Source: Bacteroidales bacterium (GTDB lineage Bacteria > Bacteroidota > Bacteroidia > Bacteroidales > JAFGHD01). From it: DNA of 34,339 nt. The notes below the pieces were generated by a model that had not been told where the DNA came from, ran no database searches, and saw only the letters and a program-made list of their open reading frames with translations. Below, one piece after another: positions 1-13,458 of this stretch (position 1 is the stretch's first letter; each line of letters starts with the position of its first letter). The translations under genes and the position numbers were made by a program. The stretch covers positions 1-34,339 of the forward strand of contig JAFGME010000098.1 in assembly GCA_016927695.1 (NCBI GenBank), given 5' to 3'.

Positions 1-48
1 AGTCTTTCCAGGAACAAAACTTAAGCTGGTCTACAAAACCGCGACACT

Positions 49-72
49 AACTCCTGCGTGAGATCAGGAGTT
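49..72. repeat. Perfect 8-bp inverted repeat (hairpin)
   Basis: AACTCCTG at 49-56 is the exact reverse complement of CAGGAGTT at 65-72, with an 8-base loop. No T-run follows on either strand, so it is not a standard intrinsic terminator. It lies just upstream of the in-frame TGA (74-76) where the nuclease remnant's readable frame begins, so it may mark an element boundary or the 3' end of an upstream transcript. Its function is unknown. Confidence 0.6.
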
Positions 73-76
73 CTGA

Positions 77-739
77 AATTATAGAGTAGATATACTAGCA
101 ATTGACACAGATTCGAATAATATAGTAATCATTGAAAATCAGTTAACAGAATCCGACCATAGTCACTTAGGAAAATTGATTACATATGGGTCACATTATA
201 ACTCAAACTTTGTAATTTGGATTGTCAATGAACTAAGGATTGAGCATGAGAATGCAATAGACTGGCTAAATAAGAATACAAATACGGATATTTCGTTTTT
301 TATAGTTAGGTTCGAGCTTTTAAGTATTGGGTACTCAGAACCAGCTCCCAAATTTACCTTATTACTAAAACCTTCAAGTTGGGTAAGAAAAACTTTTGAA
401 AATCAAATTGAGACTCCTCCAACTAGGGAAGCTTTCATACAAAAATCTAATATTGAGATTCCAAGTTTCATTGAATTTCTTGATTTATATATTCTTAAAG
501 ATAAAAGATATCCAAGATTGACTTCTAAAAATGGAGAATTTGGACTTCTTAGTGAATATCAAAAAATATTTCCTAAGGATTCTCAATTTTTTGATGAGCA
601 TCCAAAATTGTTTAGAAAATACCTTGAAATTTGGGCAGATTATAAAGGTTATATAATAAACAAAAAATTTCAAAACAAAAGATTTAATGGACATGATAAG
701 TCTAATGGAACTTATTATTACACCTTTAGTGAAAAATAG
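77..739 (+). pseudogene. 5'-truncated PD-(D/E)XK nuclease-like protein (DUF4268-associated type)
   Basis: The frame is open from 77 to the TAG at 737-739, with an in-frame TGA at 74-76 and another at 59-61. It reads N-Y-R-V-D-I-L-A, then I-I-E-N-Q-L around 128-145, then TESDHSHLGKLITYGSHY and AIDWLNKNT. This is the D...E-x-Q core and following helix of restriction-endonuclease-like proteins that often carry DUF4268. The N-terminal domain expected before the core is absent. Family members have a residue such as Gly before the N-Y/F-R-V-D strand, so TGA could derive from GGA (inference). The first usable start, TTG at 176, lies after the catalytic motif, so a product from it (187 aa) would lack the active site. 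The DNA is visibly AT-rich compared with the genes from 1157 onward, which fits acquired defence-type DNA. The C-terminal half is not recognised. Confidence 0.6.
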
Positions 740-966
740 ATGCGCCAACCACTAATAGTAGGTATAAACAAGCCCGTAGGTCGGTGCGACTTGACAAGGA
801 TGGAAGCAAAGCAAACGAAATCAAAAATTGAAAATGAAATTAATAGAAAATGCGGGCCTGCTCATACCTGCGGGCCGTTTGTTCGGCCATCTAATTTGAT
901 ATGCTTCTTGTTTTGTTTTACTCGGTTACTCTTTAAGATATTACCTTAGCACTGTTGGTAGATGCG
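737..966. mobile_element. MITE-like 214-bp insertion with 8-bp target duplication
   Basis: TAGATGCG occurs at 737-744 and again at 959-966. The segment between (745-958, 214 bp) begins CCAAC and ends GTTGG, an inverted terminal pair directly abutting the direct repeats. Inside are a GC-rich direct repeat (CCTGCGGGCC-like, twice within 851-887) and a small inverted repeat GGCCG/CGGCC near 883-898. No transposase fits in this length. The architecture is that of a small non-autonomous transposable element. The target duplication contains the stop codon of the preceding nuclease remnant. The terminal repeats are short and become imperfect after five bases, so a chance match is possible. Confidence 0.5.
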
Positions 967-1156
967 GAAATTTATCCTGTAAGTATAAACGGCCTGCGCT
1001 CAGAAATATAAAAAAAAGCAGAGTATTTCCCCATGGAAATCCACTTCATGAATTTCCCCCATATTATGCAATAAGCTGTTCAATAATTTGTTAATTTAGC
1101 AGGCTGTTCTTCAAACCCTTTGATCTGAATTGACAGGTAAAAAAAAATATTTGGCA
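967..1156. other. Intergenic region before the TolB/OMP gene
   Basis: No gene is supported here. A short inverted repeat (ATTTCC/GGAAAT) lies around 1026-1041. The stretch presumably holds the promoter of the gene starting at 1157 (or 1130), but no convincing TAnnTTTG element was found. Confidence 0.5.
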
Positions 1157-4100
1157 ATGCTGTATGGCTTTATAAGGCCTCTGCTGTTAGTATTTTTTAC
1201 TTTTCTTTTATTACCAGGGGCAAAGGCCCAGTTTTACAACGGCTCCCAGATGAGTTTCGGCAAAAACAGGGTGCAATACAATGAATTTTACTGGACGTTT
1301 TACAAATACAAGGATTTTGATGTCTATCATTATCTGGGGGGCCAGGAATTAGCCTTATACACTGCCAGGGCTGCCGAAAAATATATAAAAGAAATTGAAG
1401 GGATCATGGACACAGGTCTGGATGACAAAATCCAGTTCATCGTTTTCAACAGCCTTTCCGACCTGAAACAAAGCAATATCGGCCTGGTCAGCGATGAAAG
1501 GTACAATACGGGCGGAATAACCCATATCGTAGGAAAAAAGGTTTTCCTTTATTTCGACGGAAGCCACCGCAACTTCAACAGACAGATCAAATCAGGAATT
1601 GCCCAGTCCATCGTTAACATACTTCTTTATGGAAGCAGCATAGGCTCACAGATCAAAAACACCTCCCTTTTTCCATATCCTGAATGGTACATTGAAGGGC
1701 TGGTATCCTATCTTTCTGAAGACTGGAGCACAGAAACCGACAGCCGGGTGAGGGATGGCATACTTTCCGGGAAATTCAACAAGTTCAATCACCTCACCGG
1801 CGAAGAAGCAATATATGCCGGTCATGCATTCTGGAATTATATCGCCAATCGCTATGGTGAATCCTCAATCTCCAATATCATTTACATGGCCAAAGTAAGC
1901 CGTAAGCTGGAAAGCGGCTTCCTGTACATTCTTGGAATCTCTTTCAAAAGCCTGGTGGAAGAATGTCTGGATTACTACCGCACCATGTATGGCAAAGATG
2001 AAGAAAACCGTGAAATGCCTGCCGGCAGCCTGATCAAAAAGATCAAACCCTCCACCGTCTATTTTCATCTTAAAGTCAGCCCCGACGGAGGTCATGCCGC
2101 TTATGCCACCAACCAGTCAGGCCAATACAAACTCTGGCTTCACGACCTCTATACCGGAAAAAGGAAAAAACTCATGAAAGCCGGTTTCAGGATAGATGAA
2201 AAGGTCGATTACTCCTATCCCCTGATGGCATGGCATCCTTCAGGACGCATACTCGCGATCCTGATCGAAAAAAAAGGGGAGATTTACCTCTATTACTATT
2301 CCCTGGACGAAAAAAAATCGGGAAGGGTCATCCTTTACCAGTTCGAAAAAGTGCTTGACCTGGCATATTCCGGCGACGGCCGTAAACTGGCGATGTCGGC
2401 GGTGCAGCGGGGACAATCAGATATTTTTGTGTATGACATTGGATCCAACTCTTACGATCAGGTCACCAAAGATCATTTTGACGATCTGAACCCCCGTTTT
2501 ATCCGAAATTCGGAATATATCCTTTTCAGCTCAAACCGTTTTAGTGATACCATTCGGTTCGAGAATAAATACAACCCAGTGGAGACACAGGGAAAAACAG
2601 ATCTTTTTCTGTATGATTATGCCCGGAAAGACAATATCCTGCGAAGGGTAACCTCCACCCCGGGCGCCAATGAAATGGCCGGCATGGAATACGAAACCGG
2701 GAAGATCACTTTCCTGAGCGATGAATACGGGTTGTATAACAGGTACATCGGCTGGTTCGACAGCACCATCAATTATATCGACACGGCCATTCACTACCGT
2801 TATTTCACCAACTATTATCCCATAACCAACTATTCAAGAAATATCCTCGAACATGATTACGCCCCCGGCACCGGGAAGTTCGGGCAGGTGGTTTTCCATC
2901 AGGGCAACTATGTAATGCAGATCCACGATATCACTGATATTTCAGGGATGTCTGCCATCAGCCCGGAGAAAACAGGATATATGCAGAACATGGCAGTAAT
3001 AGAAATAAAAAACAAACAAAAGGAGCAGGATGAAAAGGGGGCTCAAAAAGGGGACGGGCAGCCCAAAAAAGGATTTTCCTCTGTAAAGGTAAGTGAGTTG
3101 CTGGCTGATACCACGGCAGCAGCAAAGGAATATCAGAAAACGATCAACATACACGACTATAACTTCGGAACACAACAGCAGATACCCGGTAAAGACGGAT
3201 ACTCGGTCATACGGGTTCCCTTACCCGGGCAGGGCTCACCAGGAGGGGACGAACCGCCGAAAAGGCTCAATTACAATGTTGAATATTTCCTGAATGAGAT
3301 CACCACACAAATCGATTTCTCTTTCCTTAATGCTACCTACCAGCCATTTACAGGTGGACTCTACCCTGTTTACCTCAACCCGGGATTCAATGCCCTGATC
3401 AAAGTCGGGGTGACCGACCTTCTCGAAGACTACAGAATCACCGGGGGAGTCCGGATCAACCTGAACCTGATCAACAATGAATACCTTCTCAGCTTTGCCA
3501 ATCTGAAAAAAAGGCTCGACAAAGAGATCGTCTTTCATCGCCAGGCAGTTGAAAACTATTACGGTTATGACATCGTACGGGTTTACTCCCACGAACTTTT
3601 CTATATCCTGAAATGGCCTTTCAATCCGGTGATGAGTGTGAAGGGTACATTCTCCTACAGAAACGATATGGCCGTTAACCTCTCCACAGAATCCACCAGC
3701 CTGCGCAGGCCTAATTTCTATCAAAACTGGTTGGGGTTAAAGGCTGAGTTTATTTATGACAATACGAAAAATTTAGGGTTAAACCTGTATCATGGAACCA
3801 GGTATAAAATCTTCGGAGAGAATTACCAGCTTGCCGATGATCTCAATCAGAACCTCATTGTGGTGGGATTTGATTACAGGAATTATCAACGGCTATACAG
3901 GACTTTTATCTGGGCCAACCGGATTGCAGGAAGCAGCTCTTACGGCAACAACAGGCTGATATACTACCTCGGGGGCGTAGACAACTGGCTGGTTCCGAAA
4001 TTCAACCGGACCACGCCGGTCGATTTTTCGCAGAATTATACCTATCAGACCCTTGCAACAAACATGAGGGGATTTAACCAAAACATCAGGAACGGAACCA

Positions 4101-10659: not shown

Positions 10660-13458
10660 CTATTGGTACCCAAAAAGCATGGAATAAATGATGAGCACAA
10701 CCAGCAATAAACCCAGAGAAAGAAAAGTGTAGCCGAATAACCTCACAGCCTTCTCGTACTTTGGCTTTTCTTCCCTCCTGATGACCATTTTTTTCAGTTT
10801 GCCTGATTTCTTTAACTCTTCATATTCACGTGGCCGGTCATATTTGTATTCTTCAAAAGGAACGGTTCCGGTGAAGATCACGGTATCCATAGGGAAGGCA
10901 TCCGGACGGAGGTGGGTGTTAAAAAAATGAATGGTAAAGATGAAGCCGACCGCCAGCAAAGCTTCATCACTGTGGATGATCATGGCCACATTGATCAGCC
11001 AGCCGGGCATCAATTTGGTAAAATACTCCGGAAACCACAGTATCAATCCTGAAAATCCGATCACTGCAACCCCCCAGAATACGGCCATATAATCGAACTT
11101 CTCCCAATAGGTCCAGCGACCATAATCAGGCCGGGGGCCGGCCCCGACAAACCATTTCAGGGTGGCCCAGAAATCTTTAATGTCCTGCCTGTTGAACATC
11201 AGGGAGTTCTTCCCGAAAACAAAACGTCCCAGAGGTATCCGGCGCCTGAACTTCATCCGTAGCAGGGAAACAATGTGAAACAGAAAATAACCAAAGGTAA
11301 TGACAGCGGCAAACCTGTGAATCTTACCTGCAACCTCAACCCCTCCCAGTACTTTTGCAAACCATGCCGCCCAGGGCATTCCTGCGAATTTCAGCATCAT
11401 CCCGGTCAAAGCCAACATCATGAAACTCAGGATGACGAAAAGATGGGTCGCCCTCTGGCTTCTGGTGAAACGACGGATGTAATACCTGGGACCCTCTGCT
11501 TTATGGCGCTCCCTGCGCTTTTTCATGGACTGTATTGACCGGGGCAGCCACATCAACAAATGGATGCCGAAGAAGCCAAATACTCCTATCAACAGAGAGG
11601 TCATGCCCCAGAAAGTGTAATATAAAGCTGGATATTTGGCTTTGTTGTGGTGTGTGGCATGGGTCAGGTACCCGGTAAATCTCATGTTGGCATCAGGGTG
11701 ACATTTCCGGCATGTTTCCACGATATTCCTGCTCCCCACAGAGGAAAGCGGATTATTGGAATTGTATATCCTGTGGGCTCCATGACAATCGGAGCATTTG
11801 GCGGCTTTCAGATAGCCTAACCGGTAGGCTTTTCCATGATAGGTCTCCATATACGTTTCTGCCAGATCCCCGTGGCAGGTGCCACACTGATGCGTCACCT
11901 CGTTCATGAACTGGTCACGGCTGATCTCAGAGATCACATGCGCCGTATGGCAATCGGCACAGGTGGGATACTTCTTTCTGCGGTCGCCCTGGTTGATGGC
12001 ATGGTCGCTGTTGATATAATCGTCGTAAATGCCCTTATGACAGGTGGCGCATGTTGCAGGGATGTTTCGGGGGTGTATGGATGACCGCTCATCCACCTCC
12101 CTGAGGACATAATGGGTTGTATGGCAGTCGGTGCAAACTGCGCTGGGCAGCAGTCCCTTTTCGGTTAAACCCCGGCCATGCACACTGGAGGAATAATCCC
12201 TGAAAGCATCTACCTCTTTCAGATCAGCCATTTCGGAAGCTCTTCCGTCTTCCCGGTGACAACTCCCGCATAGCGCGGGAATGGCCGACCGGTAAGTCGG
12301 AGAGGTGTCGTCGTACCTTGATTTCACAATATGCCTTCCATGGCAGTCAGTACAATACGGGGCATTGGCCTCTTTCCTGGAACGGGATTGCCCGTGACCG
12401 CTTGCATTATAAACATTGGAAACTTCAGCATGGCAGTTGGAACAGTTGACCTGTCCGGCGGTTTCACAGGGCCTGGCAAGCTGTGTTGATACATCCGAAT
12501 GGCATTTCACACAGGCAATATTCTTGTGCACCGAATTCGTAATGTCTTCCTTGTTTACCAGCAGGGAAAAAACCGTGTCGCCCACCACTTTATGAATGCC
12601 CTGCTTTTCATGGCAATGGAGGCAGGACCTGTCAGATATGGTATTCACAATGTTCTGAATATTCACCTTGTGAGGAGGATGGCAATCGGTACAGGCAGGG
12701 ATGGCGCCTGGCTCCTTTTCCCAAAGTTCCTTTCTGATGATCTTGGTGTGGACTTTCTCAATCTCAGCATGGCACTGCATACATGTAGTTGCAATATTGC
12801 TGACAGAAATGGAGGAATTGGGGCTGGTATGGGGCAGTATCAGGTGGTTTCCGTGGCAATCGTTGCAGGTTGCCGAAACAATAAGCCCTTTTTTGAATAA
12901 GCCTTCACCATGAATACTCTGACTGTAATTCTCCAGGATGTTGTGCTCGTTAATGTTGTAAATCCGTGCCACCGGAGCGCCTTCCCTGTGGCATTTGCCG
13001 CAAAGAACGGGTATATTCATCTTATAAGTCCGGGAATCCGGCTGCCTGCTCGGCAAAATATCGTGGCCGCCATGGCATTCCTTACAATCGGGCGCATACA
13101 ATGCTTTCAGTTTCAGAGCCTGGCCATGTATGCCTTTATCAAATTCATCCTGAGGCTTCTCGTGACAATCGCCACAGTTGACCGGGGCAAGAATCTCTGC
13201 GTGGGGGAAATCATCGCCGGCAGCATCTGCATGACAAAGCACGCAATCCACATCCCTGTGTACGGAATGCTCAAGGATTTTAATGTTCACGAATAATGAA
13301 ACACTCTTCCCCTGCCGTTCCGCGGTTAATTCCGGATCTTCATGGCACATCATGCAATCTTCATTGGTCTGTCCCGCGATTTTGATGCAGATGACCATTA
13401 AGACAAGAAACACCAGTGGTGAAATTGCACCCATAAACCTTTTGCTCTTTGTTTCCAT
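10660..13458 (-). CDS. 19-haem cytochrome c fused to a membrane cytochrome b-type domain
   Basis: About 932 aa from ATG 13458 (an upstream in-frame ATG at 13500 adds 14 residues without improving the signal). Residue numbers below count from 13500. A signal sequence lies at 23-44. Nineteen CxxCH haem c motifs run from residue 49 to 601, starting with CMMCH and ending with CRKCH. The spacing and flanking text repeat: haems 1-8 align with 9-16 (for example CGKCHRE with CGSCHRE, SIHGEGL with SVHGRGL), and 17-19 resemble haems 3-5. Next come about six transmembrane segments (near 627-650, 685-705, 730-748, 805-823, 838-860, 920-943). Histidines H686, H728, H742, H843 and H858 suit b-haem ligation, as in cytochrome b561/FdnI-like proteins. 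It likely moves electrons between the quinone pool and periplasmic haems. Partner, direction and terminal acceptor are unknown. Confidence 0.9.

Follow-up and report, generated by a model that had tools for sequence, protein, structure and literature searches.

The window, by which we mean the whole stretch of 34,339 nucleotides analysed here (contig JAFGME010000098.1 of a Bacteroidales bacterium, C152 among the contigs of its genome), opens with the 3′ end of an insertion sequence at positions 1–79, about 80 bases of which recur near the ends of three other contigs of the same genome (C202, C278 and C75) and eight times in another genome (G049). Beside it lies an AT-rich open frame (104–739, listed as ORF 176–739; 28% GC), possibly a foreign gene with a truncated 5′ side, for which we found no Pfam family above cut-off and no NCBIfam match. 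The next gene follows at 1130. In a genome of the same genus we found no empty site; the alignment of the orthologous locus, whose upstream gene we take by eye to be lepA, starts at window position 1229, apart from matches of 11–12 bases. Our analysis of the stretch between the frame and the gene (Table 1) indicates that positions ~892–987 are very probably the decayed, minus-strand, transposase-side end of an element of the IS630 family, within the IS630/Tc1/mariner group, or, somewhat more likely, of a miniature non-autonomous derivative of one.

Table 1. Sequence features between the upstream open frame and the gene at 1130, with the intact left end of the repeat family for reference
Feature	Position	Strand	Remarks
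TAGATGCG octamer, left copy	737–744	+	Overlaps the TAG stop of ORF 176–739; at chance level (shuffles)
CCAAC, claimed left end	745–749	+	Unsupported; without homologous end
Stretch between upstream ORF and element end	745–891		Possible site of a left end since lost or eroded; class-wide matches short only
Hairpin 5′ arm	892–911	−	Pairs with the transposase start codon in IS630 copies; similarity to other copies stops here
Leader between end and hairpin arm	912–962	−	87% identity to own-genome C87 (911–977); 66/90 to L031 (892–980)
GTTGG, claimed right end	954–958	+	Within the aligned region; C87 has GTTAA there
TAGATGCG octamer, right copy	959–966	+	Inside the element, overlapping its end motif
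Terminal inverted-repeat end, IS630-type element	963–985	−	Outer edge 985; sequence-only end model and nhmmer end profile
TA, would-be right-hand TA of the target duplication	986–987		Position by analogy with other copies; left copy not placed
Intact family left end			TATACnnnnACGGGATAAATTT

The original prediction had placed here a 214-bp miniature inverted-repeat transposable element (MITE) at 745–958, whose ends were CCAAC and GTTGG and whose target duplication was 8 bp long. Its letters are exact: the two octamers are identical, are the only two occurrences in the window and directly abut the inverted pair. To gauge this arrangement we counted, in the window and in dinucleotide shuffles, every 5-bp inverted pair bordered directly by a perfect 8-bp direct repeat and with an interior of 50–1500 bp, and found two such composites in the window versus a shuffle mean of 1.41, with at least one in 78% of 200 shuffles. 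Restricted to bases 1–1300 and interiors of 50–400 bp, one composite arose in 3.5% of 200 shuffles; the arrangement is thus locally uncommon, yet expected somewhere in a window of this size. Because the count is at chance level, the pattern alone is no evidence of a transposon and does not serve as the signature it had been taken for; the inverted pair and the octamers are coincidental. The case shows how easily an 8-bp repeat and a 5-bp inverted pair come together by chance. The compositional contrast that had been proposed stands for the AT-rich flank (24.5% GC over the upstream 200 bases) but not for a GC-rich interior, since 745–958 has 40.7% GC, below the 45.1% of the whole window, except at 841–893 (52.8%).

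Two further repeats in this stretch were considered. A 12-base direct repeat, GTAGGTATAAAC at 758–769 and GTAAGTATAAAC at 979–990, has nearly the same offset as the octamers and is slightly out of the ordinary, at 0.3% of 2000 shuffles and 1.07% of 3000 random window pairs. The resemblance of its two copies raised the idea of a diverged second end at 737–769 in direct orientation, which we rejected as the end profiles find nothing there. An integron attC site, prompted by CCAAC...GTTGG, was likewise set aside, its boxes being by eye unlike the consensus.

Homology redraws the borders. A search of the own genome with 700–1000 returned contig C87, at 87% identity over window positions 911–977 (E 3.8e-16), the rest of its matches being weak, with E no better than 0.05, and short, and a local alignment to L031, a locus on contig C725 of the related genome G048, has 66 of 90 positions identical over 892–980. 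Both alignments run unbroken across 958/959, an outcome that the original prediction had itself named as refuting it, so that GTTGG lies within them rather than at an end, and AGATGCGGAAATTTATCC, at the right octamer copy, carries on in C87. With both matches extending past 958/959, we put the right border near 985, some 27 bases beyond 958. On the left side, neither the ungapped end profile nor the nhmmer end profile detects a family end in 700–895, and nothing homologous to the 744/745 side turned up, so that a left border at 744/745 is unsupported.

The proposed interior does not recur as a unit: the search with 700–1000 found no second copy of 745–891 in the own genome, and no copy of the full segment was found in 395 genomes of the class or in 60 relatives, the latter searched with 1–1130. 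At E up to 0.001, 738–905 has matches in 15 of these 395, the own genome among them; outside it the matches are short and mostly AT-rich. Within this stretch, 860–890 is GC-rich and hairpin-like (CCTGCGGGCCGTTTGTTCGGCC), with a 31-base match of 90% in the flank of locus L251 (G294, C41); as an exact pattern with one N it gave no matches in viral contigs. Given the chance level of the composite, the homology through 958/959 and the missing further copies, a 214-bp MITE with the borders and duplication first proposed has next to no chance of being correct, exact though its letters are. What survives of the original prediction is the kind of entity, since this stretch does contain one end of a transposable element, probably a non-autonomous one; its ends, its duplication and its right border do not.

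Positions 961–988 match the repeat-family end TGCGGAAATTTATCCCGTnnnnAGTA followed by TA at E 4.4e-4, using a sequence-only model of 33 ends that includes none from the own genome, and an nhmmer end profile matches 960–980 at E 5.3e-5; the window thus carries at least one terminal end of an IS630-derived MITE family. With the ungapped end profile the window reaches 7.2, against 12.9 for the best of 100 random windows (mean −2.2). Both this score and the window match are weak because the outer spacer is about three bases short of the consensus, and we therefore base the identification on the homology to C87 and L031 together with the end, and not on a profile alone. On the minus strand the arm AAGAAGCATATCA comes 53 bases after the end motif, and similarity ceases near 892; positions 891–921 are identical to locus L075 at 28 of 31 bases. 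The leader motif TTGATATGCTTCTTNTTTT, allowing up to two mismatches, does not stand out clearly from its control in several genomes. The end profiles find no second inverted end within a few hundred bases in the window, and no left TA could be placed to match that at 986–987. With one end only, the window copy is classed as a relic or fragment and not as an intact IS630-derived MITE.

The end motif belongs to a family with several members in the same genome. At E < 1e-3 the model finds six ends, on C80, C53, C87 (two), C13 and the window's own C152, and relaxing the threshold to E 0.1 gives 8 matches, to E 5 gives 17; six ends and 177-bp copies are what would be expected of an IS630-derived MITE present in several copies. 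The C87 copy, bounded by inverted GGGATAAATTTCCGCA and TGCGGAAATTTATCCC and sharing the leader of the window, is a complete short element. A 177-bp mini-element family of IS630 type, better preserved than the window copy, is represented at L291 (C13 of the own genome, G000, 12115–12293) and L295 (C24) and by two further members, one cut by a contig start (L266, C53) and one longer and rearranged (L265, C80).

Across the order, the core GGAAATTTATCCCGT turns up in 8 genomes out of 247, with 21 occurrences apiece in G048 and G145 and 4 in G013, versus a single match across all 247 for its reversed control. A scan of genome contigs with ACGGGATAAATTTCCGCA returned 81 stretches; among the matches listed, 77 of 80 bear titles from the phylum Bacteroidetes and 3 do not. 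The end model, run over 60 genomes (own included), matched 26 at E up to 0.1, many of them with single and weak matches, and gave zero matches at that threshold in the same-genus genome; the matches number 117 in G048 (all scored), 23 in G013 and 55 in G011, those listed for the last covering the outer part of the model. Many of the ends form inverted pairs 93–540 bp apart, while others are single or near contig ends, and the copies sit in differing contexts. In 30 end pairs of other Bacteroidetes genomes, picked from the 80 loci listed, TATA stands at the outer side of 29 left ends and 28 right ends, and of both ends in 28 pairs, so that copies elsewhere are flanked by TA/TATA where an 8-bp target duplication had been predicted.

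A plausible parent is found in G048, where a 390-aa open frame on contig C274 carries a DDE_3 domain (E 5.1e-24; 5.6e-24 in a second search) and matches the NCBIfam IS630 transposase model NF033545 at 187.1 bits (cut-off 100), with IS481 and IS3 models far under their cut-offs. Family ends lie on either side of it, as weaker matches (nhmmer E 7.8e-5 and 0.004). By eye, a broken IS630-like transposase also lies between two family ends at L187. No DDE_3 transposase was detected in the own draft genome (92.9% complete) or in the same-genus genome; the transposase expected of an autonomous IS630 element is found in G048 and not in the own genome. For want of such a transposase in the draft, the window copy is probably immobile. 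An origin from IS200-like/RAYT elements (Y1_Tnp), suggested by a minus-strand EAYQIR stretch, was abandoned: of 29 Y1_Tnp loci in 6 genomes only one has a match to the ends at up to 4 mismatches in 18, a poor one lying 1.2 kb away, and in the IS copies the EAYQIR stretch is a hairpin arm preceding the start of the transposase.

The leaders of L238, L193 and L187 each carry a AAGAAGCATATCA-like arm that pairs with the region containing the presumed transposase ATG, giving hairpins with z-scores of −6.70, −5.45 and −5.99, respectively. The arm lies 70–84 bases from the end in these three copies and 53 bases from it in the window and L031. We suggest that such a predicted hairpin over the start codon may restrict how much IS630 transposase is translated. 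The mini-elements (window, L031) keep the leader as far as the arm and break just after it; that their minus-strand RNA, if transcribed, could bind the transposase start region in trans and so damp its translation is a speculative idea, to which we attach a very low probability.

Two other readings of the segment deserve weighing against a mini-element relic. It could be what remains of a plain, full-length IS630 copy after deletion of its transposase gene, with just the end and leader left, and the window does keep only the transposase-side end; at L187, by eye, a decayed transposase lies between family ends. Against this, L031, in another genome, has the same 53-base spacing and the same break after the hairpin arm, and there both ends, including a recognisable left one, are present within 256 bp in all; C87, with the same leader, is itself a complete short element. 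The spacing, break point and left end of L031 moderately favour a mini-element over a truncated insertion sequence, which we regard as possible but less likely.

The segment might instead be a conserved regulatory element that serves the downstream gene as promoter or leader rather than anything mobile, as it adjoins that gene on its upstream side and L031 by eye likewise sits just upstream of a gene. The other copies, however, lie in different contexts, the orthologous locus of the same-genus genome shows nothing beyond 12-base matches upstream of 1229, and DNA folds of 730–975 are no better than those of shuffles (z −0.07 and 0.72). Nor does the segment match Rfam, where a search of 1–3000 gave a single sub-threshold and unrelated match at 1510–1550. 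We consider this reading very improbable. Among plasmid and phage records, 9 and 20, respectively, have short matches, all to less than 80% of the query, and each of four exact patterns gave zero matches in viral contigs. The best reading of the window copy remains an immobile relic of an IS630-derived element or mini-element.

Relics of IS630-derived mini-elements are a known kind of sequence. Elements of this type have inverted ends of ~23–28 bp between TA dinucleotides and would move by cut and paste, with the IS630 transposase supplied from elsewhere; the window copy presumably arrived by such transposition, its left end would have been lost or eroded within ~737–891, and it would now be unable to move. 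The IS630 family makes a TA target duplication (PMC7325037), and the family copies resemble it in their inverted ends, their outer TA on both sides and, in the related genome, the DDE_3 transposase between the ends, whereas the copy in the window has a single end and lacks both a transposase and a second TA. A parallel within the Bacteroidetes is MITECca01 of Cardinium, ~240 bp long and without a transposase, which derives from a parental insertion sequence by internal loss and keeps the inverted repeats and a little parental sequence (PMC9769881). It is likewise a short, transposase-less derivative, but its parent belongs to the IS982 family and not to IS630 (PMC9769881). Porphyromonas gingivalis carries BrickBuilt and other MITEs, and its assembly gaps coincide with insertion sequence and MITE copies (PMC5771137); by description these too are interspersed mini-elements of a Bacteroidetes species, and IS630 goes unmentioned in the main text of that report (PMC5771137). 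Among the matches listed by our literature search there was nothing on IS630-derived MITEs of Bacteroidetes, nor a name for the ends of this repeat family.

By following homology across the right border first proposed, our study corrects a false element call and yields an end motif that can now be used to find IS630-derived mini-elements in Bacteroidetes genomes, several drafts of which carry many copies. The window copy, for its part, is a commonplace genomic fossil. Should the speculation about the leader arm hold, such mini-elements would be built-in silencers of their parent IS630 element.
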